Below are positions 15,001 through 44,129 of a DNA stretch of 64,000 nucleotides, one piece after another. Both the position numbers and the translations under genes were made by a program. Under the pieces are notes generated by a model. It saw nothing but the letters and a program-made list of their open reading frames with translations. It was not told where the DNA came from and searched no databases. The stretch lies in NCBI RefSeq assembly GCF_003073045.1, contig NC_037592.1:8286047-8350046 (forward strand), given 5' to 3'. Positions within the stretch are counted from its first letter, which is position 1; every line of letters begins with the position of its first letter. This stretch comes from Pomacea canaliculata. Taxonomy: Eukaryota > Mollusca > Gastropoda > Architaenioglossa > Ampullariidae.

Positions 15001-18000
15001 GGTGGCTCAGAGGTACCGCAGTGGAGGCGCCATTTTCGAGCGCCCCGTGTCCTCAGGAACACAGTCTTACGACACCCGCAAGGAACAATGGCCTCTCAGT
15101 CAACCCATGACATCAATGGATGCAGACTACCTGGTAATTCACTTTTAATCCATTTTTTTTTTTTTTTTTTTTTTTGTTGTTGTTGTTGTTGTAGTTTACG
15201 CGATATTTCAACCAAAGACAAATGAAAAGTATCCGATTTTTTCTTAAAGGCATGTTGGTCTTGTTCGCAAATATTTCCTCAGCGATTGTTGGAGTCTTCT
15301 GATAAAATAGATACGATACAATAAACTCTGGTTTGGAAAGAAATGTGTGATATAAGGGATGTAACTGCGCAGGTTTCTGCAAAGTTCGATACCTGGATGA
15401 TCTCCCTTGGGACCCAGATGAGCTTCATGCTGCTTTGTAATAAGTACAGAAGGCAACGCTGAGATCGCCTCTGTAGATGCTCAAGCTGCGTTGGTAAGGA
15501 CTCAGATAGCATAAAACTAGCAACTTTCTTAGAATTTGCCATTTTTAGTTCTGTCTCGAAGGACTTGCCATGAGTATTCTTACCAAATTGTGTATTGTTT
15601 TAGCGTAAATATTGAGTTTTAAACATTGCTTTCACATAAACAAGGCATAAGACAGGAAAATAATGACAAATCTGTAAGCCTATATAACTATAGAATATGT
15701 TGTTTTCCGACAGTTAATAGACTGTGTAAGACACAGAATGTGGAGTATGAAAACAGTTTTGAAGAATACACTTTGTCTACACTCATTTTAATTCGTGTCT
15801 TTTCTAGTATACGGGCAGTCTAGCAATAATTAAAGCACGCACACCGGTCGACTTATACTTATTATACACTTATTAACAGTTTATTTTCTAGTCATTCGCT
15901 ATAATTATTATTCTATACTAATCTTCATTAGTTCTTGGAGACACCACACACAATATGATGCAGTATTGTGTGTTTGGCAGGCTATGCCCGGGGTGTACAA
16001 ATTCATTCAAGCTTCCGACATTCCTGCTGGAGGAATAAACAACTTTTCACCCCTTGCATCAACTCATGAAGAGGTAATAATAATGATAATTATTTCCAAA
16101 CCTATTTTCCAAAGTTTACAAAAATACTTTCATTGATACTAAATAAAATTGTTCCATGCACAAACGGCATACATATATATACCAGACACGTAACAACATT
16201 CTCATGAATCATAGCGGACAAGCACTACACATTATAATGATTACAGTGTAAATGATTACTCGTTTTATTGGTCTGCTGAAGAGAGAGAGTGAATCATGGT
16301 CAAGATGTATATGGTGTATTTAAAGTAGGCAAAGCCTGTAATTATTATGGAAAGTTTATATAAAATTTAAAATAAAGGTTTGCACATTTATATATAATAA
16401 TATTTTGTTTTCAGTTTCTCTCAAGCGGTCGAGTGGAGTATGCTGGCCAGCCCATTGGCATCATAGTTGCAGGTATCCTGCAGTCTTGCTTTTGGTAAAA
16501 GAAAAGTGCTGAAAACTAAAAAAATTAGTGTAAGCCTGATTGGCATTGAAACGCTAGTTGTTATTTCAAATATCATTAACGAAAAGAAACCAATCAATTG
16601 TTAAAAGTTCATTATTGTCTACATTCCAATAGATGACCCTCTAACAGCGCGTTCTGCAGCATCCAGAGTAAAGGTGACTTACACCAATGTCCAGCCACCA
16701 TTACTGGACACCAGGACGGCCATTAATCAAAAGTCTTTCTTTCCAAGTCAGCTGGACCCTGTCATCAGTGGTGATCCAGACAGTAAGGCTTCTTTTATTC
16801 TAAAGAAAGGGTAAATCTCATTGCAAGCTGATGTGCCACCCCCAAATCTCTATCCATTCTCAAAAATACACATCTACTAACATTGCTATGGAAGGCTGGG
16901 GACATACATTAGGCGTTCACTACAAGGGCCATAGTCTCATCGCATCGACATTTTCCTGATCGCTAAACTCCAACGGCCCGAGAGCTGGCCGGCCGCTAGG
17001 CGAGCGCCATGCGTGCGAAAAATGTCGCCCGTGTAACCGCACTTCAGCAATCGGGCCGTCGACACCCTGACCTTGAGGGAATACCTAGGGAACTCCACGT
17101 GTGCGCATGCGCGAACCAACGTTTACCGAGAATCGAGAACAATGGAAGAAAAACATGAAGCAGACAACATATCGCCATATAAGAAGCCGAGAAAGGCGAA
17201 CTGCATGACAAACAAGAAAATCTGGATCTTGTTAGAAGACTGAAGTAGTGTTCGTTATCTTCTCTTTTTTATATATCTTGACTGTGCTTTGTTGTTGTTG
17301 TTTGTTTCTTTTTGTTTTGTTTTGTTTTTTTGTCAGGTAAGGTTGGAAAAGGTGTGCTTAATGAGTTCGTTGACAAATGAAATAATAGAAAGAAGAGCGC
17401 AATATGGCAGCGAATTGCAAAATTGCCGCCTTTTGTGGCGTAGAACATCGCAGTCTTGTAAGTTGGTTCAAGACTTGATACAAAAAAAAAAAAAAGCGAC
17501 CGCACTCACTGACAATACGGAAGAGAATCTTCTTCTCCCCGCTCCCATCAAGTAAAAACACTCAGTCACACAACAACATTGAAATCACCACAGCTTTCTT
17601 TCCTTTGTTCTTCGAATAAAACAACCTATCGACACCAATTGCTTAAAAAAAAAAAAAAGACCGGCCGGCCATCCCAGCATTGTGCGGCACGCCTCAGACG
17701 TCCACACTGACAGCCCCATTAACTGGGATCTTTCACACCTCCCCCTTCCACCTAATTTTCCCAGGCCCTTTCCAGGCTAACAAAGCATTTAAAATAAAAA
17801 AATAGTACAGCACGTTGGTCAGCACACACATTTTGAAAGGTACCTGTCGCATAGAAACGAAGGGCAAGACATACTTGCAATGTCGGTGTGACACTGCGCC
17901 CTCGATTCGAAAATGTTAAAGCCTCCTGAATGTCGTCGACGATCTCCAGGATGTCAACTCTTCGAAATTTTAAGCGTTCGTATATCGTTATGTCATTCCA

Positions 18001-21000
18001 TGAATTGATGGGATTACTTTGATCCCGAAATATCCTGTTTCTGTGAAGATTTCGGTCCGTGTCATACAGCAAAAACACCACGGCGGCCATGTTTAACGAG
18101 CCCTTCGCGAGTTACAGGCGCCAGCGGCCGTCTCTACACTTACAGGCCGAATCACCCGCCAGCGCAGCCAAAAGACGCGACATGTTTCGGCCTCTAAACC
18201 ACTTAGAGGGTGGTCGGACCTTTGATGGCCTCTAAGTGGCTTAGCGACGCGATGAGACTATGGCCCCAGAACAAGTGAAACGCAGAAGAGTCGAAACCAG
18301 CCAATAGCTCCAAATAGTTCGCGATTCAAAAATAATAATTATTATAGACAATCCACCTGCAAAAGAGAAGAGGGGAGAAAATGCAGCAGAAGTATGTGTA
18401 AACACCAAGGTCCAACACTTTTATTATCTTACACTACTAGCCCTCTTTCTTCGTGCTTCAGCGGCCATTGCCCAGTCAGCTCGACGCTTGAGTGGCTCGG
18501 TGGAGGTAGGAGACCAGTACCACTTCTACATGGAGGCTCAGAGCAGCAGGTGCGCCCCCAACGACAATGGAGGGATGGATGTACAGTCGACAACCCAGTT
18601 TATAGATCGCACCACACAGGCTGTGGCAGGTCTCCTCAACATCCCAGTGAACAGGTGACTGTGGCTTCATTTTATATACATATATCACCTTCTCTCTAAA
18701 CATCCCAGGAAAGAAGTGACTGATTTTTATTAACTTTTGCTAGTTGATTAGTTTTATTCTCTAAATTGCAGCGTGAACCTGGAAGTCGAACGCCTAGGTG
18801 GCGCTTTTGGAGGAAAGATCACTCGCAATTCCCTCGTCGCTGGAGCCTGCGCATTGGCTGCGTTGATCATGCAGAGGTAAACAAACATCACGAAATGTAT
18901 CCCGATACAACATTAATGATCAGAAGTAAATCAAAACGTCACAAGAGATAAAAAAAAATTAACGGAATGTATCCTGATACACCGTAGGAAAGCTCGCACC
19001 ATGTCTCGTGGTGACAGATAAACCACCGGCGGCCATTACAAGCATGGCGAAGTACAAGAGGGCGTATTTATGGAAACCGTATGACATCATATCGTCTGCA
19101 TCTTCTATTCGATACCCTGATTCTTAGCATCACCACAAAGTTGTATTTTAAGTCATGTGACTGTACGATGTCTTAGCTGAATTACAACCGGAAAGATGGA
19201 ATGTTCCCAATCTAAAGTGACTGGATATTTTCAGTCACCTCGTCCATCATTATCACGCACACCTACAGTTAGTCTATACTGCTTTTATACCTCAGTTTTT
19301 TTTCCAATGTTAATGTTTTTCTTTTTGCCCCTAGACCTGTTCGCTTGGTCGTGGATATCCACACTAACATGAAGACGATGGGAAAGCGCCTTCCGGTGAT
19401 TGGAGACTACGAGGTGAGATGTGTTCAGTGAAGAACATCTCTTACACGCTTTTTTTTGGTAGCTCTTCATTTTTAATTTACATAGATTTTGTCTTTTACA
19501 AATGTGGTAGTAACAAGAACAATTTAACCTTACTTCTGTTCTCAGTGTTAAACAGATCTTCCAAAATGTTTCTACTTTTTTAATTATTAATAAGCACTTT
19601 AAATTCTGACTTTCTGCTTTTAACAACGGTTGATTGCCTATAACAGTAATGCTATTTCACTTTTTTCCCATAGAGACCTTGAAAGTTTTTTCAGCAAATC
19701 TTTACTTGTTTGGATGTTTTGGAAAGACCAGGCCATTCTAACAACTTATTTCTTGACAGGTGGGATTCACAGAAGAAGGAAAGCTGAATGGAATAAAGTT
19801 CGCATACTACGCTGACTGTGGTCATCATGACATTGATTCTGGAAATGTTTTTGTTTCGAAGTTCATAGACAACGGTAAATATTTTCCCCGAGCCCTTGCT
19901 CTGTTCCGTATGTAAATGTATATAAATGTATAGACTTTATACTTTAAATTGAATATTTGTTTTATTTTTTACTTCTGGTAACCTACAGCTTATTACTGTC
20001 CGAACTGGAACCTAAAGATCGTCACTGTGAAAACAAACAAAGCCACTAACACGGCCCTCAGGGCTCCTGGTGAGTAACAAACAATCCAAGTCTCTGTCTC
20101 CTTTTCTAATCAGGCGATGTATGCATGTAAGTGTGCATGTAGGTTCGCGATGGAAAACGATCAAAGCAAACTGTTCAAATTTTCTTCAATTGATTTTACG
20201 AATGTTTTCTACTGAAGATGTAACCAAAAACATCACATAATAAATCCAATTATAACAAAACTGATTTCAGTTTTCAATGCCCACCCCTGTAGAATATAAA
20301 AATGTTTTGTGTGGGAAAACATACCTGTGGTTTATTTGTTTAATAACATGTCAGAGGGCGGCTTTAAGGGAAGAGCTCAATCAGACAAGAGACTACACAA
20401 AGTTTTTGTCTCTCCTTCAAGTAACTACATAAGTACACTAATGGCTATTGTAATTCGTTTTTACATTTGTCTAATCCCCTCAAAAAGAGGCTGTTCCGTG
20501 TGTTTACATGATGGAGACGATAATGGAACACATTGCCAAAGTGCTTAACAAGGACCCCACGGAGATTAAAAAACTCAATCTCTACCAAAAAGGACAGGTA
20601 GTATAACACACTTTATATTTGTAGACACGAATTTTATTAATCTGTAGCGTTTCCAGAAAAGCAGACGGACGGCTTGTGCTTCAAGTCTTTTCAAACATAA
20701 CTAGATTCCCTTTATCTCACACCACGTATTTGACATAAAAAAAAGTGTCTCCACCTGTAACATCGTTCACGAATCCTTTGTCCATCCCAGTTTGCTCTGA
20801 ACGGTACAAAGCTGGACTACTGCAACCTCACAGAGATTGTTTCTCAGATAGAAACATCTTCTGACTTTGAAGCTCGCAAACGCCAAGTGGCCGAGTTCAA
20901 TCAGGTAAATTTAGAAAGTAGCAATTATAATTTCTCAATAATTAGGAGTAATAACGGTGATAGTCCATGGGTAGTGTCACGCTGGGTTCATAAATATGTA

Positions 21001-24000
21001 TTTGTCTCAGAATATTCTCTTTTTCACTCTATTATCCTTATCTTTACCTCTTGCAAACAACTGACATGGCAGATATAGGGTAGATATGGTACTATATAAC
21101 ATTAGAATACTGAGATGTTATTTTTTCAGGCAAATCGTTGGAGAAAGCGAGGCATCTCCTTGATCCCCTCAAGGTATGGTGTGGCATGGACCAACGGAAA
21201 TTACAGTGTGTTTGTGGCTGTGTACCACGCTGACGGGTCGGTCACCGTTGAACACGGGGGCATCGATCTAGGGCACGGAATCAACACAAAGGCAAAAAAT
21301 ATTTACTTATTATTCTATGTCTTAAGCAAGTAATTTAAAGAGGAGATTAAGTTGATCTTTATTTACGAAGAAGACATTATTCTAATGCGTGTTGACTTGT
21401 TCTCAGTTTTCATGCATTCTAAACCCACCATACTTGGCATAAGGTCTTGAAATCAATTGTTTACAAAGGACACTGTAGATGTACCTTAAAAAATCTACAT
21501 CAGAGCTTGAAAATTAAACAGCATGCGTGAAAGCATTTACTTTGAGTGTTCATTCAAGAAGAAGAAAAAGAAGAAAGAAGAAGCAAGTTCTATTTGAGTT
21601 ACAGTGTTATGTCCCCTGCATAAGTTTCCACACATTTCGGATGAATTACATATTTCGCTTCGATGTTTTTCCAGGTGGCCAGGTGTGCGCCTATGAGTTG
21701 GGTATTCCTCTCTCACTGGTTCGGGTCAAGAAGAGTTCTTCTAATGTAAACGCAAACTCCTTCCTTACCGCAGGATCCAAAACAACAGAGATGAACTGCC
21801 AGGTAGGTTTGTGCTGTCAGGAAAAACAAAAGCACATTTCCTAAAATCTTGTTAAAATAATGGTAAAAATCCAATCATCTTACCTGACTATTCTAGTAAT
21901 ACTTATGTTTTATCGGGTCTACAAGCGTTTACGGTTATTATTTTATTTTATTTCAGAAAAATGTCTAGTGCTTACTGTTCTTCTTCACCAACGAGTGTTA
22001 TCTAATGTTTGTTTTAATCTTATCTGACCTCTAGAAGTATTTGCTGTTTGTTTTTGTCCTACCTGACCACAGGGAGTCATCCAGTGCTGTCAGGAAATTA
22101 ATGCTCGCATGGCACCAGTCCGACAGAGAATGGCGACTGCCGCGTGGAAGGACATTGTCACCGAGTGCCATCGCCTGAGAATCGACCTTGTAGCCCACGC
22201 CTTGTAAATATTACCGATGACTTAAATATTATACTTAAATATTACCTCCAGTCCTCTGATAGAATTGTAGAAATGATACAAACTCACTATAGTACGGGCG
22301 ATATAAAAAGGACAATGGATCCGTATTGTAAACTATTCCCCAAACAGTATGAAATATCGTTGCCTTCTTGTTATGTACATATACTTTATTTTAAAACCAT
22401 ACCTGCTTTAAGACAGAAGAGTTGCGTTCATTAAACTTTAAGAATGGTAATTTATTTCAGATTGTAGCCAGAATACGATAAAAGTAATATTTGTCAGGTT
22501 CTCAAAGAATAAACATTCTCATTAGCTGTAGAAATATGTGTGCGTTGTGAAGAAAGGTCTTCTAGGAATAGAACACAATAAAAGAGAACAGGGTTTATCC
22601 TGCCCCACTGCCCTGTGTTTCTGTGTGACAGCACCGTGCCCCAGAGTGTGTATCCATGTCGCTATGACGTGTACATGGCGGCCGTGGCGGAGGCTGAGCT
22701 GGATGTACTCACTGGTCAGTTCCAGATCAACCGCGTGGACATCTTGTACGACTGCGGCGACAGGTTTGTTGTTTGATATCAATATCAATACTATTCCTTC
22801 AAATTACCTTTAGTCAGCTGGACATCCTTGCCGTCAGGCAGTTTAGTATAGGAGTGATCATTTGGCATCAACTGTCAGACCTCCCATAAAGATTTGGTTT
22901 TGCTGTTCAGCATGAATCCGGAAATAGACGTTGGACAGATTGAAGGAGGATTTGTGTTGGGTATGGGATGTCACCTGACAGAATACAGCAAGTTTGACCC
23001 CAAAACAGGAGTCCTGCTCACTGACGGAACTTGGGTGAGTTGGAAAAAGTTTTCTTCTGAGCGCCTGAAAGTACATTTCTTTATAAGTGTCAGATTCTAA
23101 AAAAGCCCAACACACAATCAGTTATGATTATGAAGCCTTCAACTCTCTATTTATAATTATATATATAATTAACATCATTGTGGAGATGATGCGGTAATAA
23201 CAGTTATAAGGGAGAACACACATACGTCGCTTGCACGACATACACAGATTGGGTTACTATCACAACATCGCGTTAAGGACGTGGCGTAGAGAAAGAAAAA
23301 TATTTAGAGATTATGCAATAGAATATTTGGAGGAAAAAATAAAGAAAAGGAATAATGTCCTCTGTTATCCACTGCAGCTGTACAAGCCGCCTCTACCCAA
23401 AGACCTGCCCATAGATTTCCGAGTGGCGCTGTTGAAGAACGCCCCCAATCCAATGGGAGTATTGCGCTCCAAAAGTAAGCACAAGCGATTTGTTTATATT
23501 TACACATAAGTAATCAAACGGTTCTCATCACAACACAACAGAACACTCGTGTTTTGAAAAAAAACCCGTTTAGTCCGCAAAGTTGTGCAACACTGCCATC
23601 AGTTTTAAAACAATAAATGTGATTAATATGTACCCGAAGTAGGTTTTTACTCGGAAAAAAAGCTACCTGAAAATGAAGAAAAACCGACGCTCATTAGTTT
23701 AAATTTCTAGGTGGAGGAGATTTATGAGTATTGATTATTCATCATTTAGCAATCCTCCTCCTGAAAACTTAATTTTTCTGAAACATTTCTGCCACTAAGC
23801 CTATGACTTCTCTCTGAACTGACTGCGTGGCGTTTGCTAGACTAGCACCAAGTTAGTTGTCTTAGTGTCTTCATTTGTGAATCCCATATCATCGTCTGTT
23901 TTGTAGCTGTCGGGGAGCCACCGGTGCCAATGAGCTGCTGCACCGTCTTCGCCATCAAGCACGCCGTGGAGGCTGCACGTGCCGAGATCGGCCACGACAC

Positions 24001-24335
24001 CTACTTCACCCTGAGTAGGTCATAGGTCACAGCTAAAACTCTGCTAACCTCTCCACTTGACTTTATATAACCGTGAAATCCCGTTGTCTCTTATAAACTA
24101 TCGTCGCTTCTTAAAAGATTCTGTGATTCTATTTACAAATTTCCTGATTTTTATTCGTTTGATGTTAAGAAATTGTTTTACAAGGTAAAGTAAGAAATTC
24201 TTTTATATAGATTATATTGATAGCGCATGGTGATAAATTTACACTTCTACCTGTTCTTCAGACTCACCTGCGCTGCTGCAACAGGTTCAGGCGGCCTGTC
24301 AGGTGGACCCTGCCCAGTTCACACTTGGAAACTAG
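9069..24335 (+). CDS. Copy B: complete aldehyde oxidase-like molybdo-flavoenzyme, 34 exons
   Basis: The predicted enzyme oxidises aldehydes or N-heterocycles using a Mo cofactor, two 2Fe-2S clusters and FAD. Exons: 9069-9118, 9418-9545, 9938-10107, 10273-10433, 10846-10922, 11209-11291, 11700-11930, 12367-12446, 12704-12850, 13082-13184, 13527-13675, 13841-13951, 14211-14277, 14745-14836, 14975-15133, 15373-15493, 15981-16073, 16415-16472, 16633-16782, 18462-18654, 18772-18876, 19335-19413, 19760-19874, 19989-20069, 20488-20597, 20791-20904, 21130-21291, 21675-21802, 22073-22203, 22632-22763, 22911-23034, 23378-23474, 23907-24014, 24262-24335. The ATG opens MPTASDQ and keeps the CPAC motif of C and D. 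Fe-S motifs CTEGGCGVC, QCGFCSPS and CRCTGYR are complete. Four single-base deletions (exon 7, exon 16 twice, exon 28) break the frame. Restoring one base at each makes the exon sum exactly 1,329 codons including stop. Exon 27 reads DLGHG where relatives have MGQG. GC splice donors follow exons 11 and 27. Exon 2 could instead begin at 9407, but would then be out of frame. Confidence 0.9.
11985..12045. repeat. ACC/ACG trinucleotide microsatellite in copy B intron 7
   Basis: A short run of ACC, ACG and GCC-type trinucleotides sits just after the exon 7 donor at 11931. Copies C and D lack it at the same place, so it arose in copy B. The poly-Thr and poly-Val frames it creates are artefacts. Confidence 0.8.
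15151..15192. repeat. Poly(T) and GTT run in copy B intron 15
   Basis: A run of more than 20 T followed by GTT repeats lies 18 bases after the exon 15 donor. In reverse complement it would be a poly(A) tail, so it could mark a minus-strand retroelement insertion, but no element body was recognised beside it. Confidence 0.5.
16926..18266 (-). mobile_element. Harbinger/PIF-type DNA transposon, internally reduced, in copy B intron 19
   Basis: The ends are inverted repeats: GGGCCATAGTCTCATCGC opens the left end and its reverse complement closes the right end, with 21 of 22 bases matching. The 1,341-bp element contains a minus-strand fragment of a HARBI1-like transposase, which sets the superfamily. 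The body is richer in G+C than the surrounding intron. Harbingers usually make 3-bp target duplications; the flanking triplets here are CAA and CAG, so no clean duplication is visible. Much of the transposase is missing, so the element is presumably non-autonomous. It explains why this intron (1.7 kb) is much longer in B than in C or D. Confidence 0.82.
17752..18090 (-). pseudogene. HARBI1-like Harbinger transposase, N-terminal fragment (112 residues)
   Basis: The frame resembles the N-terminal region of HARBI1/Harbinger nucleases: an FRDQSNP segment, then YERLKFRR, then TPTLQVCLALRFYATGTFQ, which matches the usual 'P..QVC.ALRF.ATG.FQ' pattern. A full HARBI1 nuclease is around 350 residues. 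The catalytic DDE part is absent here, so this is a remnant unless further exons were lost with the deleted interior. It lies near the right terminal repeat and reads inward. Confidence 0.8.
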
Positions 24336-24679
24336 TCGTCTGCTCGACTGGGCTAAGTGGCCGTGTGATGCTTTATGAGATGTTGACTACCTACAGACAT
24401 GTTTACTTTACCTTTTAGTGACATTCAGCTTTAAAGTGTTTTAGAGTTTAAAGAGCTTTTGTTTTCAGGTCCAAGATTAAGTCTTTTCATGGAGAAACGC
24501 TTAAATGTTTGAGAATCAATTAAACATAAGCGGACAAAGGTGTAATAAGTAACCAAAAGATAATTTGTTTATCGTATTACACGTTTGTCTGATTTTCTTG
24601 TACTTGGTTTCAAATGATGTAAATACTAGAAGATTATACTGATTACTGTATACAATTTTTATCACTTAACGTAAATTAC

Positions 24680-27163: not shown

Positions 27164-29167
27164 ATGCCTGTGTCTGTGGATGGACCTCTTCTGTGTCCAG
27201 CATGCGGCTCAAAGTAAGGAAATACATCCTGTGAAATATGCATTCTCTAGAAATAGAGTCTGAATTGCTCTGTGAGATACTCGTGGTAGATATAGTACTT
27301 GTGGTAGATGTAGTACTTGTGGTAGATGAAGGCAAACATTCACATCTTTTGAGTTAGTTTCAGTTTAGTCCTTGTTACTCTGGTGGCCAAAATAACTTTC
27401 TTGATGACTTTGCAACTATTTTAGGCAAGAGGTACCTCCAGGGTCAGCAGGTCAGGAGGAGTACGCGGGGACCTGCATCAGCTGCGGCTTCTACATGAAA
27501 CTACGACTACAACAGGGAGCTAGCGACGGCGTCACCTTCACAGTGAATGGCATTCAGTGCACAGGTACTTGTTAGTCTATATAATGTGTTCTACAATTAG
27601 TGAACAACACAGGTAAGTTTACTGATAGATAACACAAAAAAGGCTAATGATAAACAAGTGTGGCTGTAGGTAAACAACACATAATGTTATTGATAAACAA
27701 CACAGAAAAATATTAGTAAAAAGTAGTTACTTGTTGCCGTGCAGTTTCGTGTACCTTATGGTTTCTTGCTTATCAAATACTCTAGGGCTGACGTTTAGTA
27801 TAATTCTAGGATTTACTTCTAATCTCGTATTTGTACTGAAATGTCGGCAGTGGGAGATGAGTTTAACCCCGCCACATCCCTCAACGAGTACCTGAGGAGG
27901 ACAGGTGTGTCTCGGGGTACGAAGCAGCTGTGTATTGAAGGAGGGTGTGGGGTGTGTCTGGTGGCCGTGAAACTGTACGAGCCGGTCAGCGCCACGTCAC
28001 AGGTGTACGCAGTCAACTCGGTGAGTCTGTGTTTGTTTGTTTGTTTGTTTGTTTGTTTGTTTGGTTGGTTGGTTGGTTGTTTGTTTGCTTGTTTGTTTGT
28101 TTGTTTGGTTGTTTGTTTGTTTCTTTGTTTGTTTGTTTGTTTGTTTGTTTGGATGGTTGGTTGGTTGTTTGGTTGGTTGGTTGGTTGGTTGGTTGGTTGG
28201 TTGTTGGTTGGTTGTTGGTTGGTTGGTTGGTTGGTTGGTTGGTTGGTTGGTTGGTTGGTTGGTTGGTTGGTAGGTAGGTTGTTTGTTATGTGTGTTCCAT
28301 GGTTTAAATGAATGTTTTGGATTTTTTCTTTAAAATAGTGTCTAGTCCAACTGTACATGTGTGACGGGTGGGAGATAACGACCATCGAAGGACTGGGCAA
28401 TGTCCGAACTGGCCTCCATGCAATACAAAAGCGTCTGACTAAGTACAATGGAGCTCAGTGTGGCTTCTGTAGCCCCGCCCAAGTAATGAATATGTATGGG
28501 TGAGTAATCATGCTAAGACTGTGACAAATAACTGCACAATTATGTACGTAATTGAAAACAGAGAGTCAAATGTCATACTTTTTGTTGTATTGCTGCGTAC
28601 ACTGGCGACGATTTCTTTCTAAAATACGTCTATCTAAAGACTTGTGCTTTTTATGTTTTACTAAAGCAAAATTTACTGTTAGTTTGCTTCAGAGAAACCC
28701 CACACCCACCATGCAGCAGGTTGAGGACGCCTATGATGTCTCTATTTGTCGCTGCACAGGTAAACCTCATCAAAGTTTGGATTAAGTTTTACCTGCTGAC
28801 GTTAAAAGGGTATCCGTTGCCAAAAAATGTTTATATTTATAAAGCATTCTTTTATGATTTGCCTCAGAATACCCAAAACACACGGCATAAGGCGGAATAA
28901 CAAACTGTCCATTCAATGTTTTTATTTCTGTTTCCGTAGTTCATTTAAGTACAGGACTCTAGGCAAAGGACCTTACGTATTGAAATCGCTGTTTGAACTA
29001 ATGACTCGTTAAGGGAAGTATTGTTTGAAGGAAGACATTTAATTGAATACAAGCAGTCAAAGATTAAACTTCATTGATTTGCAGGCTACAGATCAATCTT
29101 GGACGCCATGAAGTCTTTTGCTACAGACGCTCCATCCAGCCTACAAGGAGGCATGATTGATATCGAG
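27164..29167 (+). other. Copy C exons 1-6: zinc-ribbon-like N-terminus and two 2Fe-2S domains
   Basis: Residues 1-227. Cys11/Cys14 (CPACG, exon 1) and Cys34/Cys37 (CISCG, exon 2) form a CxxC...CxxC pair typical of zinc ribbons; this is not a normal part of the family. The plant-type ferredoxin domain follows from about Phe55: ligands Cys91, Cys96, Cys99 (CIEGGCGVC) and Cys121 match cluster-binding cysteines of XDH. The second, all-helical cluster domain has Cys161/Cys164 (QCGFC) and Cys196/Cys198 (CRC). All eight family Fe-S cysteines are present in B, C and D. Confidence 0.88.
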
Positions 29168-32100
29168 GTATTCAAAATCTTGTAGCAGATGTTGCTTTTC
29201 ATCATATAACATTAGGATTTTGAACCACATATACATGAAAACGTTTAGTAGGTTAGTAATGAGGCTTTATTGCTATTATCATCACCAACAAGAATGTCAT
29301 TAGTATGATTAAATTTTGCTAAAAGTGTTTTTACAACAGAAGTAGTGAGAAAGAAAGGTAACAGTGCGGTGTAGATATTTCAAATGGCAAAGAAGTGAGT
29401 CAAACATGAAGTAGCTTCTTCAGGATTTGAACCCCAAGATGTGCAAGCAGACGGGAAAAAGATGCGAGGGCAAGTGTGACAAGAAGTCTGACAAGAAGAG
29501 TTGTTCCAGTGATCGACAGCAAGACAGCGGTTCCCTGGGTAACGTGGGCGCCAGGGCTGTGTGGTTCAAACCCACCACACTGCAAGAACTTTACTCTCTG
29601 CTCCATCAGCACCGCACGGACAACTACCGCCTGTTCTTTGGCAACACTGGCTATGGTAAAGAAGATTTAATCAATTCATATTATGTTTCTCAAACCTACA
29701 TAGAACATAACTTAATCAATGTTCATGGTCATATAAAAATCATCTAATAATGTTATTGAAATGATTTCCCTTTGTAATTAGACATTTTTCTTAAAATGGT
29801 AATTTGAATTTTTCACTTTGATATCTCAGGTGTGTACAAAGAGATCGGACCGTGGATGTATGACAAAATGATTGACATCAGAGGAATACGTGAGCTGTAC
29901 AGGATTGAGGTGATATATGGTAGCTAGTAACTAATTTAATTACACTATAGACTAACTGGACGTCCATCACAAGAATCTGGATAAGACAATATGAAGTACA
30001 GGTGTCTTACTGGATATAAAAATTCAGTGACAACGACAAGAACGACGATCTAAGAGAAGAACACGTTGTTAGAATAAAAAAAAATATAGGATATTTTTCG
30101 GGTCATGACTTATTCCAGACAGATGTTTTTGACGCTGGCTGCTTCCTCTTGTAAATTATTAACAGTGTCAGTTGACCTTTGTGGTGATGTTGTTCATGTG
30201 ACGTGGCAGTTCACTCCCTCGCTGGTGTGGGGCGCTAACCTGACGCTGACCAACATCCACGACCTGTGCGACAAGGCGCGCAGCAACGCATCACTGCCGT
30301 ACGCCGCCGTCTTCGCGGAGCACATCAAGAAAGTGGCCAACAATGGCGTCAGGAACGTACGTGTCACGTGTTAGCCAGAGCTTGTTTACTGAGCTACAAT
30401 ATCCGTAAATGTGTGAATGTCAGAATGTTATTACGCTTCGACAAGACATTTCATGGACTAACATTCAAGAAAAATAGACAGCCGCTCAAAAACAGGAAAA
30501 TTATTTATTTGGAGTAAGATTTTAGTTTGCGAAATAATTTATAAAAATGATAATCAGCATTGGATTAAAAAGAAGAAACATTGTAATAGCTTAAGACAGT
30601 GATGCCCAACTTTTTCGGCCTGGGGGCCATATACATTTCCGACATGCGAGTCACGGGCCGCTTCACCGCAAAAATACAAAAAAGAAAAAAAATAGAGCAG
30701 ATACCACTTTTTATTAGAAAAAAGTTGTACTTACCATTAATTATGTAGTAATTAGGGATATTTGAAGTTGTTTTCCCGAAACCAACTTCTGAATGTCTGG
30801 CTGCATCGTAGAGCATTTGGCAAGTCGGAGCACTGAATCGAAATGTTCGTCTATCGAAAAACAGATTGAGAGACGCCACTACGTAGGGATAAATACTTCT
30901 TCTTCCCTTTTTTCGGTTTATTTTTTGTTTTGTTTTGTTTTTTTTTCAGATTTTTCTTTTATTACTAACATGCCGATTTCCTGCACTGTGGGCAGAAGTT
31001 TCGCGGGCCGGATATGGCCCGCGGGCCGTAGGTTGGGCATCCCTGCCTTAAGAGAACAATCAAATAACTGTTTTATTATTTCTTATAAATATATCAGTGA
31101 CATTACAAAAACAATTATTGTCTCTTTCTATTAGCTGGCATCATGGGCAGGCAATCTGATGCTGAAACACAGACATCCAGAGTTCCTCTCTGACATCTAC
31201 ACCATGCTGGATGTTGTTGGTACCAGACTCCTGATTGGTACGTTTGTTATCTATCGAGTGGGGAAAAGATATTTCAATAGTTGAAATAGAGAACAAACAT
31301 CGTTTATTTTTACAGTTATATTATCTGTTATTGTCATTGAACCATGTCAGATGGCCAAATGATTTTAAACTACTTGCGATGTTGTCTTAATCAAACATAA
31401 AAAATTGCAAATAATTAGATAATCATTTTTTATCAGTAATGTAAACGACAATATTTTCCGTCATACATTCATGTTCCAGATCATTCTTTCATCAATTTGT
31501 CTGAAAGGCTAGGTAAAAATATTTTATGCAGTAAAACCTTGATGGTGAAAATATTATGTCAGCATATTTATCAGTGTTTTCAAAGTTCTGTTGTTATGTT
31601 CCAGGCGACGATTTGGGAAACAAAAGCCAGTGTACACTGAAAGAATTTCTCAGCCTGGACATGCAGGGCAAAGTCATCGAGGCAGCCTTACTCCCAACCT
31701 ACACCGACACCAACAACTACATCCGACTTTATCGTGTTTCACAGCGACTACAGGTAAACCTCGTCCTCTTTTATTTAAAATATATCTATGCATCTGATTT
31801 ATTTTCTGCGAATCGTGCTCTACAATATTCTGCTTATTTTTAGGAAAAAAAGCTAAGGACTAGTATTATTTCCATGGTTTATTTTTTTACTCCTTGTTTA
31901 CAGGCTGACCATGGTCACGTGATAGCAGGGTTCAACATGAAGATAGACAAGACCAACAACTGCACGGTGCTACAACGACCAACTATCGTGTTCCAGGGCA
32001 TCAGTGGCACTCTGGTCGGTTTGAAACTTTTAAAATTTAAAATTCTTTTAGAATTAAAAATGTTTTAACCAAGGTGAAGGTTTAGACAGTAAACTAATGA

Positions 32101-35100
32101 TTCTGTGAGTAGCTAGCTAGCTACACAAAATATTTCTTCTGGTTACATAAATTACACTTTTAATTGTTTCAAGATTTTCATCAGCGAGCATAAATGAATC
32201 ATCTTGCATTTTTTTTGTCGATAGAACCGTGCTGAAAATACAGAGACCTTTCTAGAAGGGAAGCAGTTGGGTGATCCTCAAGTTCTCAAAGGTAAGTGAG
32301 AGCAATAAAGAATTATTGTTTACCCAGTAACCAACCAAAGGGACCAGAATAAAGCAACACTATAGTCATAGCTCAAATGTTCAGTGGAGCAGGTAACGGT
32401 TAGACTTTCACAGCTCACAGTAAAATGTGTATTTACATTTCTGATGACGTCATGTTTGTATACAACAGAGTGAAGTTTAGAAAAAAAAAATGCAGCAGAA
32501 TATTGGACATACGAAGGAGTGTGTAGGTCAATTCTCACTATATTTTATGCCTCAAAGTGCTATGCATTCCAGTAACGACAACCATGCAATATTTCTGTCT
32601 GACGTCCCCGGAAGTGACGATAGTGCGACCTTTGACCTAGTTCGTACTTTCATGTACCAGCTCTTTTCGTCTCTTGCTCCTCGAAACAGAAACTGGTTTT
32701 GTCATGTTTCGCTTTAACGTTTAACTTTATTTTGTTTTAGCTTGACTCTAAAGGTATTTTTCTCTTGCAGACTGCTTTTCCATGCTGAGCATTGAGCTGA
32801 CCCCTGCCAGTGACCCTCTACTGGCCAGTGCTGAGTATCGCCGAAGTGCTGCGATGTCATTCTTCTACAAGGTATGTCGCCATCTAATAACTACAGCATA
32901 ACTTCTTTTGCAATTTTGAGCATTTATATGTATATTATATGAAACTTTCGGTCCCCAGTACGTGCTGGACGTGTGTGGAGACAAGGTGGCTCACAGGTAT
33001 CAGAGTGGCGGCGCCAGTCTGGTGCGCCCAGTGTCGTCAGCAAGTCACTCGTACGACACTCGCAGGGAGGAGTGGCCCCTCAACGAGCCCATGACATCCG
33101 TTGACGCAGACTACCTGGTAATCAATGGCTTAAAATATATTAGTATGTAAAACAGCTAAAAATCATACGAAGAATGCTTTTATTATTTTAAATTTACTGT
33201 AAATATTTTCGTACAGTTTTTGATTGAACATGTTCTGGACGTCAGTTGAATTCACAGTTGTCCATAAAGGTAAATTCAACCCTTTGCTGCCCCAATCTAA
33301 TCAGTCTCAATTCTGTGACATTTCAAGAACTAATTTAAATTCCTACCTCCTGTCCTCCTCATTAGTTTCTGAACATAACTGTTTCTATTCGCCATGTAAA
33401 TGCCGGCTTCTACAACACAAGTATCGCACCATCAAACAATGCTCGCAGGTTTCTGGAATGGTTCGATACCTTGATGACATCCCGCAGGAGAAAAACGAGC
33501 TGCACGCTGCCCTTGTTATCAGCAAAGAGGGAACGCTGACATCGCCTCCATTGACGCCCAGGTGGCGCTGGTAAGTTGATGTCGAGAGAATAACGATGCT
33601 TACAACTGATTAAAGTTTTTTGGTTATTTGCTGACATCGACATCGACATTCTATGCCTTGTTTACAAATTATGTCCCTGCTATGTGTAATAAATTAAAGC
33701 ATGTAATTTTATGTTTATTGAAAAAGAGGAATAACAGATTGTTATTAAAACTGTTGAACTATTGCCATCATTGGATCAATGGAGTTAAATAGAAATTTGC
33801 TGTTTAGTGTTTACGTGAACATGAAATTTATTTAAATACACGAACTTACTTTTGTACAGAAAGTAATCAAAGTGCAAAATATTTAGTTTCTTTTAGACTT
33901 AATTCTTCAAAAAAAAATTTGAAAAATTAAAACATCCACTTTATTGATGAGATGATGTGTTATGGTGCTTTACCGTATTTTTTCAGACTTTACCAGGGGT
34001 GTACAAGTTTATCCAAGCATCTGATTTTCCAGCCGGCGGAAAAAATAATTTCAACCTGTTTGGTCAAACGCCAGAGGAGGTATAAACACTAAACTCTTCT
34101 ATATCTCTAGATAAGAAAAAAGAAAAAAAAACTGTCAGTAAAAAACAAGAATATTATTATTAACCACAACTAAGATAGCAACAGAAACTAGATTAGCATT
34201 ATTAACGACAGAATTAGCAATAAATTATTCAAATAATATTCAAGTAGCCAGTAGCTTTTTCTGGATTTCTTTATTCTAAAACATTGTTTCTGAATTTATG
34301 TTATAAAAGCAGTGGGTTGCGAAGCTTGATATATAAATATAAACCCCTTTCTGTGTTAGATTCTCTCAAGTGGTCGCGTGGAGTATGCCGGCCAACCCAT
34401 TGGCATCATTGTTGCAGGTACCGGTAGATACAATAAAACTTTAGCAATCAACAAGAACATCTACTGCCAAGATTTATAGGTTCTAATATCTCATGCGCTA
34501 GCAATATACAACCTAAGTGCATCCATATGCATGGTCACTACAGTGAGTAAAGTTCTTACCATATATATATATCAACAGTAGGTACATTGGTATACTGCAT
34601 TAGGTCATCTCATACTAACACAGCATCACAGTAAGTAGAATTGAGCAAGTGAAACGATTGGCATTTATCTAAAGCATAAAACAAATATAAAGTGTATATG
34701 ACTCGTAAGTACTTAATTAGTAATCAGAAATTGCAATAAATTATATGGTCTATAAAGAACATGGACGTTTCAGTCTGTTTCTGCCAATAAATCGACTAAG
34801 ATGGGGTAGGAGACCATTACACTATCTATGCATAACTTTTAAGGGACATTTCACAAGCCTTACATCCACTTTCTGTAGACGATCCTCAGATGGCAAGTAC
34901 AGCTGCCTCCATGGTCAATGTGACCTACAAGAATGTCCAGCCTCCGTTGGTGAACCTCAGGACGGCCATCAGCCAGAAGTCGTTCTTTCCCCATCAGAGG
35001 GATCCTGTCATCAGAGGTGACCCAGACTGTAAGTCTTGAAACTCCTGCATTTTACACATTTATTTTCATAACCTTTGCGTTAGTTCACAAAATTGCTGCT

Positions 35101-38100
35101 AAGCAAATATGAAGTGACTAAACAGATAAATTCTCGAACAAATTTGCATAGCTAAGTTTTATTTATTGAATACTATTATATGACATCACTATATCGGCAA
35201 TCTGTGTTTCCCAGTGGCCATAGCCCAGTCCCCCCGTCGCCTGACTGGGTCTATAGAGGTAGGAGACCAGTACCACTTCTACCTGGAGTCACAGAGCAGC
35301 AGGTGTGTCCCCAACGACACGGGGGGCATGGACGTGCGGGCGACAACCCAGTGGGTGGACGGTACAGCAAAGGTTGTGGCAGAGGCCCTCAACATCCCAG
35401 TCAGCAGGTTAGGGATTATTTTTTTAAATATGCCATCTTTACTCATCGTTGTCAAGGTGCACAGGTGAATTCTCCTTTATAATATTTTAATAAGTAATAT
35501 TCTCCTCAAGGGAAGCAAGTGTTGATGGATCGAGAAACGGGGAAATTTCATCTCTGATTTTTGGAGAGTCTAGACACCTACTATTCGTAGGTTTCGATAA
35601 AATGATGTAAGGTATCTCAATAAGTAAAAGAGAAGAAAAAGTAGAGCTCTGAATTTCAAACAATTAAAAGTCATCACCCCTGTTTCAATTTTAGAGTAAA
35701 CATGGAAGTCGAACGCATAGGAGGCGCTTTCGGAGGGAGGATCACTCGCAATGGAATGGTCTCTGGAGCATGCGCCTTGGCTGCCTACATCATGCAAAGG
35801 TAAATAAGGAGATGACACTACTGATATAAAGACTAGCTTCAACAAAAAAATTAAAATCCTTATAGAGAGCATCATTTCGATGAGTATCCTTTTCTTATTG
35901 TGTTTAATCCTTACTTTACCGAGAAAACCCGTAGTTTAATTAAAATGCCAAAAGGACTAGTAGGGAGCAAAATCTTTTTTAATGATTAGGTAAAGCTTAG
36001 CATTGTCTTATTTTCGCAAGTCTGGGTAATACTCCTCTTATGATGATGACGAAAAGGAGAAAGAGGAGGAGGACATCGTCGTCGTCATTATCTTCGCATA
36101 GAAAGAGACCAACAAAATAAATGTCAGATAAGCGCATCGATAGCATAGGAAGATACGAGCCAATGAAAAAGCTGGAAACTTTTGTTAATTAGGCTTGATT
36201 TTAGTTTCTTTCTTTTTTTTCTTTTTAGTTTTAGTTTCTGGTGATTGAGTGTACGTTTTATGTAGTGTTTTTCATAGACTGGCTTCTTCTTTATTTGTTG
36301 CTATAGCAACATACTTAAGTCTTTCACACTTTTCACCCACGACCAACGCTTGTTTTAACAGTTTAGTGGTAATAATTTTTTTTTCTCTTTCTCCCAGGCC
36401 AGTGCGCTTGGTGATGGACCTGCACACAAATATGAAGTCGCTTGGAAAACGTCTCCCGTGTGTTGGCGAGTACGAGGTGAGGCGTGTTCACTGCAGCTTC
36501 CTGTGTTCTCTGCTTTCTCGTCTTTAGAACATTTTTACTTTAATTTCTGAACGTCGCTTAAACCACAATATCTACCCAATACATCATCTGTAGACAAAAA
36601 ATCATTCAAGAGAGTGTAAAACATGTTAATAAAAGGAATTTTTATTAAAAGAAATATTAAAATAGACAATTAAGGTCACACCGAAAATCTTGAACTTTGT
36701 TTAAGAATTCCATTGCTGGTTGGACGTTCATTTAAATGCATTTACGGGTCGACCATTAATTTTAAAGTCAGGCAGCAATTGCTAGACTAGTTTGACCACG
36801 TGACTCGACACGACACCTTGTCGAAGTCTGTCCTTCAAGGAAGACTGTCTTTGGAGGATTGTGGACGCCACGGTGGCCAGAACATGAAGAAGTGGACTGG
36901 TCGTCCTATACAGGACCTGTTTACTATTGTCCAGAATAGATATGAGTGGCGGCTCCCTCCCCACCCTCCACCCCGTACTCCCCAGTCAGACGACGACTGA
37001 CAAAATTGTGATATTGCCGCTAGAGTGTAATTATTTTATCATGCATTCATTTCATAATATTCATCATGAACAGCGCAGCTTTAATAATATGTACATCTAT
37101 ATTAGTGTTACTAATTTCCTAGTGGTGGCCAAAGGTGCTTTTATGGTGATGATAGTTGTGATGAGGATCATTTGCATCAGCATCTACTCACATCTTTGGA
37201 CTCTTATCTTCTTTTGCACCTGCCAGGTGGGATTTACCGAGGAAGGAAAGATGAACGGAATCAAATTCACTTACTACTTAGACTGCGGTCACAATGATGC
37301 TGAATCAGGAGCATTTTATGTTCCCACGTACATCGACAATGGTAATCTGATTTCCTCTGAGCACTTCAGTCAGGCAGACTGCAAACACTACTAACAAGAG
37401 TAGTTTAGGAGTGAATGGTTGTAAGAAGCGAAAGGTGTGTTCTCTACTTTAAGAGCTTTAAGTTCTTATACCTTTGCATGATATGTAAGATGTAACATAC
37501 TTCTTTCTTCACAAATAATCTGCATTATTTTACAGATCTTTCTTCTTTTTTTAGTGTACTATATTCCAAACTGGAATCTTACAACAGTCTCTGTGAAAAC
37601 AAATAAACCAACCAACACCGCCTGCCGTGCTCCAGGTAGGAATATTTAACTTTCTACACCTTCTAATTCTATTCAACTGTTAAATTTAATTTCAGTTCTG
37701 TTTTAATCAAAGCTTGGAAAACTATGTACTTATGTATTCAGGAAAATTATATTATGACAATGGGATTTTACGATAATTGACTCACACGACCGTGCAGTTC
37801 TTTGACTGGGAGAACAGTGAACCATTTTAAGTGTAGATAGATTGTAAGAGCTATAACCACTTCGCAGCTTAAAATAATATAAGAGTAATATAGGTTCAGC
37901 ATGAAATATTACTTAAATTAAAACGACATATTTATTTTTGGTATTGTTTTTGGTATGCTCGCGTTCCGAACCCTCCTGCCAACTAAGATGCCCTGCCGTC
38001 TGAGTTCATGATCGAGACTGTGATGGAGCATATTGCGAAATCCCTCAACAAGGACCCCACGGAAATTCGAAAACTTAATTTCTACCAAAAAGGGCAGGTA

Positions 38101-41100
38101 ATTGGATTCATCCTTCTATTGTTAAACCAAACAGCAGATCATGTGAGTCTATAGAAGAATGTATAAAAGCGCTACAGGCCGGAAAATATCTTGAGAATGG
38201 AAGAGCAAATAGTTTGCTTTAGCTGAGATTTTCTCAATCATTAATAAAAATCACCTCTTTGATTTTAATGTCCTACTCACCTAGATTCCCTCGCTTTAAT
38301 ACAAGAAAACGCATTTTTAACACTGCACAAAGCCTTATGCAAGTAGCAGACACATTGAGGCGTAGCCTGAAAAGCCCAAATATTTTCTCATTTCTTGTTA
38401 AATAATGATAGTTGATATAATTAAACTAATCCCATTCATCACATATAGCCGCAAATAAGTTCTCTCGAAAATTTTGAATGTCCCCAAGAATTAAAATATG
38501 CCTTTTAAAGAAAATGCTCACGAATCCTTTGTCCATACCAGTTTGCTCTGAACGGCACAAGGCTGGACTACTGCAACATCGGGGACATTGTTTCCCAGAT
38601 AGAAACATCTTCTGACTTTGAAGCCCGAAAACGTCACGTGGCCGAGTTTAATCAGGTAATAGGCAGAAAAATAAAACAACAATTTTTCTTACTATTTATA
38701 TTTAGGTATTATTTATTTATAGGATGATCGGTTGATGTAATTCGATCTAAGGTGTTGGAGGTCTGTGTGACAGTTCCTGTGGATTTTTACACACTCGGTT
38801 GAATACGTGTTTCAGGCAAACCGTTGGAGAAAGCGTGGCCTTTCCCTGGTCCCCACAAGGTATGGGATGGCCTGGACAATGGGAAAGTACAGCGTGTTTG
38901 TGGCCATCTTCCACTCAGATGGCTCCATCGCAATCGAACATGGCGGCATCGACATGGGACAGGGAATAAATACAAAGGCAAGTAAACCGTTTATCTTCTG
39001 TACAATATTTGATAGAGTGGCATCTCAACACGAAGACATTGACCTGCAAGAGGAAAAGTAAATAACAAACAGTCTTGTGACTTTCCTAATGATGGACCAA
39101 TCCAACATCAATGTTTGCTCAATAAAACAGTTTTTATTTTGTTTGTGACACAAGACTTGAGACTGGATTGTGCTTAGTTATTTAGAGGAGCTGCATATAT
39201 ACACACATATATGTATATACAGTAGATATTTACCCATAATTGCAATCCATGAAAAGGGATTGGGCTTCATAGAATTCGCTGAGATGATACCTACAGCACT
39301 GCATGTCCTGTATCATTTGCCGACTCGCTTTCTCTCCGGGGTCCGTGTGAGTAGTATAACTACAGAATGTAAGAAGCCATATTAGGACACCTTTTAGTAT
39401 TATTTCCTCATACTATAAGCCATTTCCATGGGGTTCTGACTTTTGTACATATTTGTCAATAGGTGGCGCAGGTGTGCGCCTACGAGCTGGGTGTACCCAT
39501 GTCGCTGATCCAGGTCAAAAACAATTCTTCTACCGTCAACGCCAACTCTGTCGTCACCGCAGGCTCCATGGGCAGTGAGCTGTGCAGCATGGTCAGTTCT
39601 TGTAGTCTGATTTGTCCTTTCTTTTGGACAGAAATATTGTTCTTCTATGGTTTATATTCAGAGAAAAATACAATTTATCAACTGTTTAAATTCCAAGTCG
39701 TGACTCAAAAAACAAACAGTTAAAGACCAACTCTCGGTTCATCATTACGTCAAACCATGAACGTAGATCCCCTGGACAGCTTGCAGACGATTTTTTTCAC
39801 TTAACTGCTAGAACGAGGCTCGGGACCTCAGAACTTCCGGTTAAGCCTACCATGGTTTAGCGAAGGACTTTAATGGCTATGTCAGCAAAGTCTGCTAGAG
39901 TAACATCAATAAAGAAACACACAAAAGGCGGTTGATACTGCTGCTGGTAGAATGTAACTGCAAGTATCAAATCGTTCGGTGTAAATTTTTTTCCGCTTCC
40001 GCGAGCAGGAATATCGACAGATCAAGACAAGTGGCGAGCGGCTCTCATTCATGCTACAGGCCGCTAGATCAGACACAAGTTTCAATCTATTGAGAGCCAA
40101 GATTTGTTCAAGGCACTTGGAAGAAGAATGCATTAAAAAAGGCACTGATCTTATTTACCTCTTGCTCTTCTTTATCCTGTTCATGTTATAGTTCGCGACT
40201 ACAAGGCGACAATTTTCACAGAGCCAAGGATTTGCCCATTAAAAAAAAAAATTTAGTTATTAAAAATCGCGTCATTCATTAAATTACTTGAAAGTGTATT
40301 GATTAAATATCTTCATATTGTTTTAAAAGCTCGCTGTAGATGAATAGGCGTAGAACAACGAAATACCCGATTTTATATAAAAGCGAGAGACCGAGGTAAA
40401 GCATATATATGCGAACACTTCATGATTGTAGATCTAGAAGTTTAAATACGATTCATATATTATTTATTATTTCATACGAAAGATTTCCGACTAGTGAAGC
40501 CAAATACTTTTGTGTTCTAAATAAGATAACAAGTTTGGTTAAAAGTGCAAACAAGCATATACATTACGGTAATTATATTGTTGATATCAAACGTCTCATT
40601 AAATTCATTTTCGCGCTGCTATTCCGGAAGTACGACCGGCCAGAGGCTCGCCGAGACTGACCGCGGATCACTTCGCAAGAGGCCGACAGTGAGTCTCGGC
40701 GTACAGACATCAGTCCACCTATCTACGTCCATGGTCAAACTAACAAACAAACATGAAGTCCACCCAGAAGTAAGCTAGCTCGTGTGTATGTATTTCACAA
40801 GGGCGGAGATTTGTAGCGGAAATATATACACCCAAAATGCTGAAGATTCTGTAAACATTCTGTAAAAGAACTTTCTAGAATAAAAAGCATGATCAAATCT
40901 TGCTTTTCGAGTACTACACAAGTAAAAATATGTTTGTTTTTCTAAGGAAACAAACCCTAAAGGCGTTGATGGTTTAATTTTATAAAGGGAATGAGTTAAC
41001 GTACGGCCACAGGGAGCATGCTATGTTAATGTAGTTCATAAATGTGAGTCTAGGGGGAAGGTTACTTGCAAAGTGTTGTTTAGCTTAGCTGATGAGTCTG

Positions 41101-44100: not shown

Positions 44101-44129
44101 ACCCTACTCAGTTCACTTTTGGAAACTGA
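27164..44129 (+). CDS. Copy C: complete aldehyde oxidase-like molybdo-flavoenzyme, 34 exons, best-preserved copy
   Basis: Exons: 27164-27213, 27425-27564, 27851-28020, 28339-28499, 28683-28759, 29085-29167, 29424-29655, 29830-29909, 30210-30356, 31135-31237, 31605-31753, 31904-32014, 32225-32291, 32771-32871, 32959-33117, 33449-33570, 33987-34079, 34360-34417, 34879-35028, 35215-35407, 35695-35799, 36398-36476, 37227-37341, 37555-37635, 37988-38097, 38542-38655, 38816-38977, 39463-39591, 41519-41649, 42210-42341, 42532-42654, 43144-43240, 43544-43651, 44056-44129. Every junction agrees in position and phase with copies B and D. The only frame defects are one missing A in exon 16 (near 33532) and one missing C in exon 31 (near 42620). 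With both restored the exon sum is 1,336 codons including stop (1,335 residues). Exon 27 uses a GC donor (AAG then GCAAGT). A hAT element lies in intron 9 and a LINE fragment in intron 22. The enzyme is expected to be a cytosolic homodimer, as in characterised relatives. Confidence 0.92.
28031..28287. repeat. (GTTT)n/(GGTT)n microsatellite in copy C intron 3
   Basis: About 250 bases of GTTT then GGTT tetranucleotides start 10 bases after the exon 3 donor. Copies B and D carry shorter GTTT runs at the same place, so the seed repeat predates the duplications and expanded in C. The long frames made of Val-Cys-Leu or Asn-Gln-Pro-Thr repeats over it are artefacts. Confidence 0.95.
29424..33570 (+). 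other. Copy C exons 7-16: Cys-rich linker, FAD domain and hinge
   Basis: Residues 228-651. The linker reads [18 protein letters not shown], the C-x-TGK-x-C-x-G-x-C pattern I associate with insect aldehyde oxidases. The FAD-binding part includes FGNTGYGVYKE (the family's GNTE-like loop) and [19 protein letters not shown]. The FFPGYR segment that binds NAD in xanthine dehydrogenases is replaced by an unrelated stretch starting [15 protein letters not shown]. This supports an oxidase that passes electrons to oxygen. The segment HDTLREEW-like hinge follows the FAD C-terminal helix bundle; exon 16 (VRYLDDIP) starts the Mo half. Confidence 0.82.
30589..31053. mobile_element. 449-bp non-autonomous hAT element in copy C intron 9, with target duplications
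   Basis: The element proper is 30597-31045. The ends are CAGTGATGCCCAAC and, inverted, CAGGGATGCCCAAC, the CAG-starting ends usual for hAT transposons. It is flanked by 8-base repeats GCTTAAGA (30589-30596) and CCTTAAGA (31046-31053), with 7 of 8 matching, the duplication length of hAT insertions. No transposase is encoded. A second copy of equal length is at 46317-46765. Confidence 0.88.
36800..37000 (+). mobile_element. LINE reverse-transcriptase C-terminal fragment in copy C intron 22
   Basis: The frame [20 protein letters not shown]...[20 protein letters not shown], ending in SDDD and a stop, matches the common C-terminal tail of non-LTR retrotransposon ORF2 proteins in invertebrates (a 'LSKTVLQGTLEGGRRRGRQ...WTGLPM.DLL' pattern ending near an Asp run). 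It is a 5'-truncated relic with no poly(A) tail recognised. The exact LINE clade cannot be called from 67 residues. Confidence 0.72.
41436..41482. repeat. Poly(T) tract before copy C exon 29
   Basis: A nearly pure T run of about 45 bases ends 36 bases before the exon 29 acceptor, so it may serve as an extended polypyrimidine tract or mark an old retroelement tail. The rest of intron 28 (39592-41518, 1.9 kb) shows no gene or element I recognise. Confidence 0.7.
41814..41876 (+). mobile_element. Possible SINE/LINE 3' tail in copy C intron 29
   Basis: The stretch beginning GTAAGGCACTCTGAGCCTGC and ending GTATAAATCAACTTTATG resembles the conserved hairpin-like 3' tails of some invertebrate SINEs and their LINE partners (a '..GCACTTTGAG...GCGCTATATAAAT' pattern). 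The 5' body is not recognisable. This is from remembered pattern only. Confidence 0.35.

Follow-up and report, generated by a model that had tools for sequence, protein, structure and literature searches.

The aldehyde oxidases and xanthine dehydrogenases of animals are known from the textbooks as enzymes whose domain order is fixed. In the snail Pomacea canaliculata, a group of tandem genes of this family raises the question of whether this order has been extended at the N-terminus by a small metal-binding module. We approached it in a window (that is, the whole stretch of DNA analysed) of 64,000 nucleotides, which holds three aldehyde-oxidase-family genes near full length (B, C and D) and the end of a fourth (A), all in tandem. 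The features concerned are as follows, with positions counted within the window.

224–6400, forward strand: paralogue A, the fourth tandem gene, 3′ part; to judge from their position, the exons of its module are found about 7 kb ahead of the window (L016/L021)
9069–24342, forward strand: gene B, tandem paralogue
9069–9118, forward strand: gene B exon 1 (MPTASDQSIVCPACRTK)
9418–9545, forward strand: gene B exon 2, in-frame reading from a shifted acceptor; the homologous acceptor at 9407 gives a one-base frame break
27164–44130, forward strand: gene C, a member of the aldehyde-oxidase family with about 34 conserved exons; a span without a mapped stop codon and with a one-base break in exon 31
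27164–27213, forward strand: gene C exon 1, with the start codon, the first CxxC knuckle and a phase-2 donor; the ATG has A at −3 and is the first one in frame
27425–27564, forward strand: gene C exon 2, with the linker, the second knuckle (CISCGF), KLRLQQ and the first strand of the [2Fe-2S] domain
27851–28020, forward strand: gene C exon 3, plant-type [2Fe-2S] ferredoxin domain
47508–60393, forward strand: gene D, tandem paralogue that differs from C by several one-base gaps
47508–47557, forward strand: gene D exon 1
47937–48076, forward strand: gene D exon 2

A 469-base repeat with 83% identity is also present in the window, at 30584–31052 (an intron of C) and 46304–46772 (between C and D). 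It looks like a dispersed element.

In genes B, C and D, the first two exons encode CPAC...CISCGF directly upstream of the first [2Fe-2S] domain, in B by way of the shifted acceptor. The first-pass annotation had placed CPAC in exon 1 and CISC in exon 2 of gene C, right before the ferredoxin domain. This is borne out by the reading frame, as the two exons join in phase 2 and the frame continues into the ferredoxin domain of exon 3. The same annotation had stated that B and D keep the module. For D this holds, and its two exons are in frame across the module. For B the result is ambiguous: read from the homologous acceptor, exon 2 is one base short and out of frame, while the reading from 9418 stays in frame and retains all four cysteines. 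Either the splice site has been altered or a single base has been deleted, as an assembly error or in a pseudogene.

The enzyme behind the module was examined with the gene C protein (spliced, hand-trimmed, 1,209 residues, 3′ end left off). Its best match among those listed in the PDB search was 7px0, 'Aldehyde oxidase 1', which aligned over residues 55–1204 of 1209 (E 2.8e-214) and which we take to be an insect aldehyde oxidase. The aligned span takes in the FAD as well as the molybdenum domains of this one chain, and both N-terminal FeS domains score above their Pfam cut-offs (Fer2 with 22.1 bits against 21, Fer2_2 with 91.5 bits against 30.3). A six-frame search with the molybdenum-domain model PF01315 returned nine matches, eight of them on contig C8 above the cut-off and a single one on contig C3 below it. 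The C3 genes, among which are the tandem copies described here, are thus poorly seen by this model when searched exon by exon.

The alignment also bears on the statement that usual members of the family lack the extension. In 37 of 37 matched PDB sequences, the match sets in no earlier than residue 50 of the query, which leaves about 50 extra N-terminal residues here, and none of the 60 matches listed (of 62) for the gene C protein reaches residues 1–49. In 7px0 the ferredoxin strand starts from residue 5, without a CxxC...CxxC extension. Xanthine dehydrogenase/oxidase 1fo4 (presumably the bovine enzyme) and four xanthine-dehydrogenase-like genes on contig C8 have the same domain order and [2Fe-2S] motifs as the module genes, but they start a few residues before F.VNG and carry no module. 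The first exons of the C8 genes, assigned by the F.VNG motif, begin with MSYISRLIFYVNG, MATFDVADLVLFVNG, MSYISRLIFYVNG and MASTKYNELIFFVNG. The earlier statement therefore stands for both the solved structures and the xanthine-dehydrogenase-like genes of the snail itself.

To see how far the module extends, we turned to the genome, which has been described as a 440.1 Mb long-read assembly with 14 chromosomes, the longest of 45.4 Mb (PMC6129957). The search for family members covered 440,159,624 bases in 24 contigs. One of these, 15,707 bases long, is mitochondrial; judged by eye, its protein genes lie on a single strand in the order cox1, cox2, atp6, nad1, nad6, cob, nad4L, nad4, nad5, cox3, nad3, nad2, which is a caenogastropod order. 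With Fer2_2, 18 exon matches were obtained, corresponding to at least 16 genes when grouped by position: 11 on C3, one on C1 and four on C8. The search with exon 2 gave 11 matches, all on C3 (ten within 8.21–8.42 Mb and one at 15.04 Mb), and nothing on C8. Each of the 11 genes having exon 2 also has an exon 1 with CPxC. The array at C3:8212566-8418457 (G000) consists of ten module-bearing aldehyde-oxidase-family genes, nine in the same direction and one reversed. The copy at C3:15.04 Mb is dispersed and lies outside this array.

Comparison of the 11 copies allowed us to ask whether the cysteines are maintained. The two CxxC pairs are present in all of them, B again only by its shifted splice site and with a shorter linker. 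In the alignment of the first 52 residues, only M1, C11, P12, C14, C34, C37, G38 and F39 are invariant. Two of the 11 copies, D and L012, encode one and the same module protein. The ratio pN/pS, taken from pairwise sums in which pairs overlap and saturation is uncorrected, stands at 0.91 in the eight codons that precede CPxC and drops to 0.03 for CPxC. It rises to 0.80 in the linker (nine codons before the second pair, in ten copies with B left out). The 12 codons that begin with the second pair give 0.32, and the ferredoxin strand gives 0.30. By parsimony, the four cysteine codons experienced 8 synonymous and 0 nonsynonymous changes, against 26 synonymous and 56 nonsynonymous ones in the seven preceding codons (Fisher p 2.3e-4, with changes treated as independent). 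The topology for this count was typed by hand and is close to but not identical with the ferredoxin-region tree described below, ties were resolved as synonymous, and nine linker codons were left out because B lacks part of them.

Judged from these sequences, the pattern exceeds chance, with both pairs in every copy and the cysteine codons under purifying selection. The earlier description of constant cysteines in a variable background is thereby upheld. Chance occurrence of the cysteines was rejected, given that 11 of 11 copies keep them.

Could the extension nevertheless be absent from the mature protein? Translation might begin further downstream, at Met41 for instance, or the transcript might use another first exon, so that CPAC...CISC would be a chance string or part of the 5′ UTR. 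The splicing of exon 1 to exon 2 is predicted from sequence, which leaves room for such a reading, and residue 41, just after CxxCGF, is indeed Met in 7 of 11 copies, in a position like that of the usual xanthine dehydrogenase start. In the other four copies, however, this residue is Phe, and a downstream start at Met41 was discarded for that reason. The synonymous-only history of the cysteine codons also speaks against the absence of the extension, as does the start context: a purine occupies −3 of the ATG in 11 of 11 copies (10 A, 1 G), with no earlier in-frame ATG after the last stop. We regard this alternative as very unlikely. A phase-2 GT donor follows exon 1 in all 11 copies, and the homologous acceptor of exon 2 is in frame in ten of them.

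More care is needed with the possibility that tandem copies in decay retain the module as a relict, its conservation reflecting recent duplication and gene conversion and not function. One-base frame breaks were found in B (exon 2 at about 9429 and exon 7 at about 11825), C (exon 31, at about 42619), D (exon 4 at about 49016 and exon 7 within 50010–50243), L020 (exon 7), L021 (exon 3) and L023 (exon 5). Between C and D, net gaps of one or two bases occur in exons 16, 19, 20, 22, 28 and 29; some of them may arise from the way the exon edges were aligned. Misassembly of the tandem copies could account for the breaks, or they could mark pseudogenes, above all in D, which looks worst. In favour of a relict, some exons are also 97–99% identical between copies. 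Against this, the flanks of the cysteines in exon 1 diverge freely while CPxC does not (0.91 and 0.03, see above), all cysteines are kept in four divergent copies, and scattered one-base breaks also fit residual long-read errors in an array of repeats. On balance a relict seems unlikely to us. The number of frame breaks, together with the PF01315 result, nonetheless slightly lowers our confidence in the main reading.

Exon 9 (12682–12866, 30188–30372 and 50807–50980) is 97–98% identical between B and C or D, with neighbouring exons at about 78–87%. This similarity suggests gene conversion, as far as sequence comparison can tell. In a comparison of C with D, strong divergence is seen where exon 1 starts and in the linker (27164–27450 against 47508–47970), and exons 3–4 are about 98% identical. 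The N-terminal flanks of these two genes may thus change at an unusual rate or be spared from homogenisation. C and D also resemble each other closely in the 3′ half of exon 2, where the second pair is less informative. The second cysteine pair therefore lies in a highly similar stretch, maybe levelled by gene conversion, and we let the argument rest mainly on exon 1 and the four divergent copies.

To place the 11 module genes among their relatives, we used a tree built from 152 columns of the ferredoxin region. In it they were separated from all others with support of 0.989 and stood next to the C1 gene and 7px0 (0.808), with the xanthine dehydrogenase group apart (1.000). This grouping points to aldehyde oxidases rather than xanthine dehydrogenases. 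The aldehyde-oxidase-like gene on C1 has a short and different exon (YGHDSNVTFYLNGQHHTG) before its ferredoxin exon. Neither CPxC nor CxxCG[FYWLH] occurs in the 9.5 kb upstream of it, searched in three forward frames. Such a distribution fits one gain of the module on the stem of the 11-gene clade, although it may also have been lost elsewhere.

The intron after VNG was at one point considered an old first intron shared by the whole family. This idea was dropped, as in this genome the xanthine dehydrogenase genes are split at VNGKK and the aldehyde oxidase genes at VNGxQxT(G). In the C1 gene the intron takes the aldehyde oxidase position.

We also looked for a source of the module. When the genome was searched with the 48-residue module of gene D, the 10 matches obtained fell on 8 of the 11 known loci and nowhere else, although the search missed three known loci and a diverged donor copy could escape likewise. 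Scans of viral contigs and genome contigs revealed no relatives. Among the papers listed on aldehyde oxidase and xanthine dehydrogenase, outside the subscription journals, none deals with such a module to judge by titles and abstract beginnings, or, in the top-ranked part of broader searches, by titles; passages on a fungal nicotinate hydroxylase describe no N-terminal module either.

What kind of module this is can be narrowed down by its matches. The hallmark of zinc ribbons, two CxxC knuckles about 20 residues apart, is found in 11 of 11 copies (B by its shifted acceptor). A PDB profile search with ten copies gave weak matches only, 39 of them up to E 10. The top one was 50S ribosomal protein L24 (E 0.005; presumably the Thermus protein), with its CPACG...CAKCG aligned to all four cysteines. 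Pfam DUF2387 (PF09526) matched 9 of 11 copies, with a best E of 0.0007 and below the cut-off wherever one was given. In NCBIfam the module matched 22 scattered families, many of them zinc-binding and some not. Taken together, the weak matches in Pfam and NCBIfam are mostly to zinc-binding families. No zinc-ribbon model exceeded its curated cut-off, either with three proteins or, in the Pfam and NCBIfam profile searches, with the first member; for the other members, best E-values alone were given.

The likeness to zinc ribbons (L24, DUF2387, Elf1 and CPXCG, PF14255) thus consists of the two CxxC knuckles they have in common with the module and, in L24, of the same register of four cysteines. 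The matches themselves are weak and lie below the curated cut-off wherever given. We know of no case in which one of the matched zinc-ribbon families is fused to a molybdoenzyme. As the matches are sub-cut-off and the families scattered, we term the module zinc-ribbon-like and assign it to no named family; it would appear to stand outside every one of them.

The identity of the metal calls for a further alternative. Rubredoxins use knuckles of the same kind, CPxCG and CxxCGF, and the four cysteines might bind iron in a rubredoxin-like manner, forming an extra one-electron redox centre beside the [2Fe-2S] clusters. Rubredoxin and rubrerythrin-like models do occur among the weak matches, but there was no clear match to a rubredoxin model in the Pfam, NCBIfam or PDB profile searches, and the best of the weak matches are zinc-binding proteins. 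In addition, the enzyme that follows the module is complete and needs no further centre. We therefore hold an iron site to be improbable, even though the sequence itself gives no distinction between zinc and iron.

Alternatively, the cysteines might serve redox sensing or disulfide switching instead of constitutive metal binding, since CxxC pairs are able to act as thiol switches. A further conserved set of cysteines in the linker between the FeS and FAD domains would be in keeping with such a role. Two pairs about 19 residues apart, with CGF after the second, fit a ribbon better, and a thiol switch strikes us as extremely unlikely.

The linker between the FeS and FAD domains deserves a comment of its own. 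In gene C it is encoded by exon 7 (29424–29655), and here and in the other copies it contains cysteines of the CKxTGxxCxGxC type. The first two are found in 11 of 11 copies and the third in 10, the exception being L020, which has a frame break at the third. The C1 gene has only the first two, and the xanthine dehydrogenase copies are unmatched in that part. A Cys-rich linker is common to gene C and 7px0 (in the latter, CPKTGQTCSGSC). These cysteines may form a further metal or redox site.

The explanation that we consider probable is a structural Zn(Cys)4 ribbon fused to the N-terminus of an ordinary aldehyde oxidase, with a role in stability or docking. The earlier interpretation as a metal-binding module is thus supported in part: the CxxC...CxxC extension of aldehyde-oxidase-family proteins is there, and selection, start context and splice sites favour its translation as a metal-binding module, while zinc is the likely metal, and the contacts with a partner or for cofactor loading suggested by that annotation would be a possible role. 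According to this explanation, an ancestor of the molluscan aldehyde oxidase clade would have carried a short 5′ extension, today's exon 1 and the front of exon 2. The extension would form a four-cysteine zinc ribbon, with CPxC as the first knuckle, a linker of about 19 residues, CxxCGF as the second knuckle and then the KLRL stretch, leading directly into beta-strand 1 of the N-terminal [2Fe-2S] domain. It would most likely bind one structural zinc ion. Since its end coincides with the beginning of the ferredoxin sheet, the module should be located at the enzyme's FeS end, where the ribbon may be packed onto the ferredoxin domain or next to it, making the N-terminus stiffer and providing a surface for protein docking. 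The enzyme downstream would be an ordinary aldehyde oxidase with Mo, FAD and two [2Fe-2S] clusters.

A working analogue may be found in the archaeal zinc-containing ferredoxins of Sulfolobus, in which the zinc in an N-terminal extension contributes partly to stability (PMC2946596). There, as proposed here, a zinc-bearing extension is set on a ferredoxin core. The same source also indicates the differences: these ferredoxins are of the bacterial 3Fe/4Fe type, and their zinc is held by three His and one Asp as opposed to four Cys (PMC2946596). No homology is claimed.

A bolder version, which we think unlikely, is that this molluscan lineage of aldehyde oxidases gained a further Cys4 metal centre by its FeS chain, possibly with iron, as a docking port for partner-specific transfer of electrons or cofactor. 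If that were true, these oxidases would pass electrons to, or be loaded by, a dedicated partner, and would not be free O2-reducing enzymes.

On the sequence evidence, the module appears to be an add-on to an aldehyde oxidase that is absent from its relatives with solved structures. Were it widespread and merely structural, it would amount to a modest note on domain fusion. A conserved metal-binding cap at the iron-sulfur end, present in 11 paralogues, would alter the fixed architecture of these enzymes. Its four cysteines offer a concrete handle on partners, on a stability device or on an extra centre, and the module singles out one clade of snail oxidases in which to study detoxification or the breakdown of odorants.
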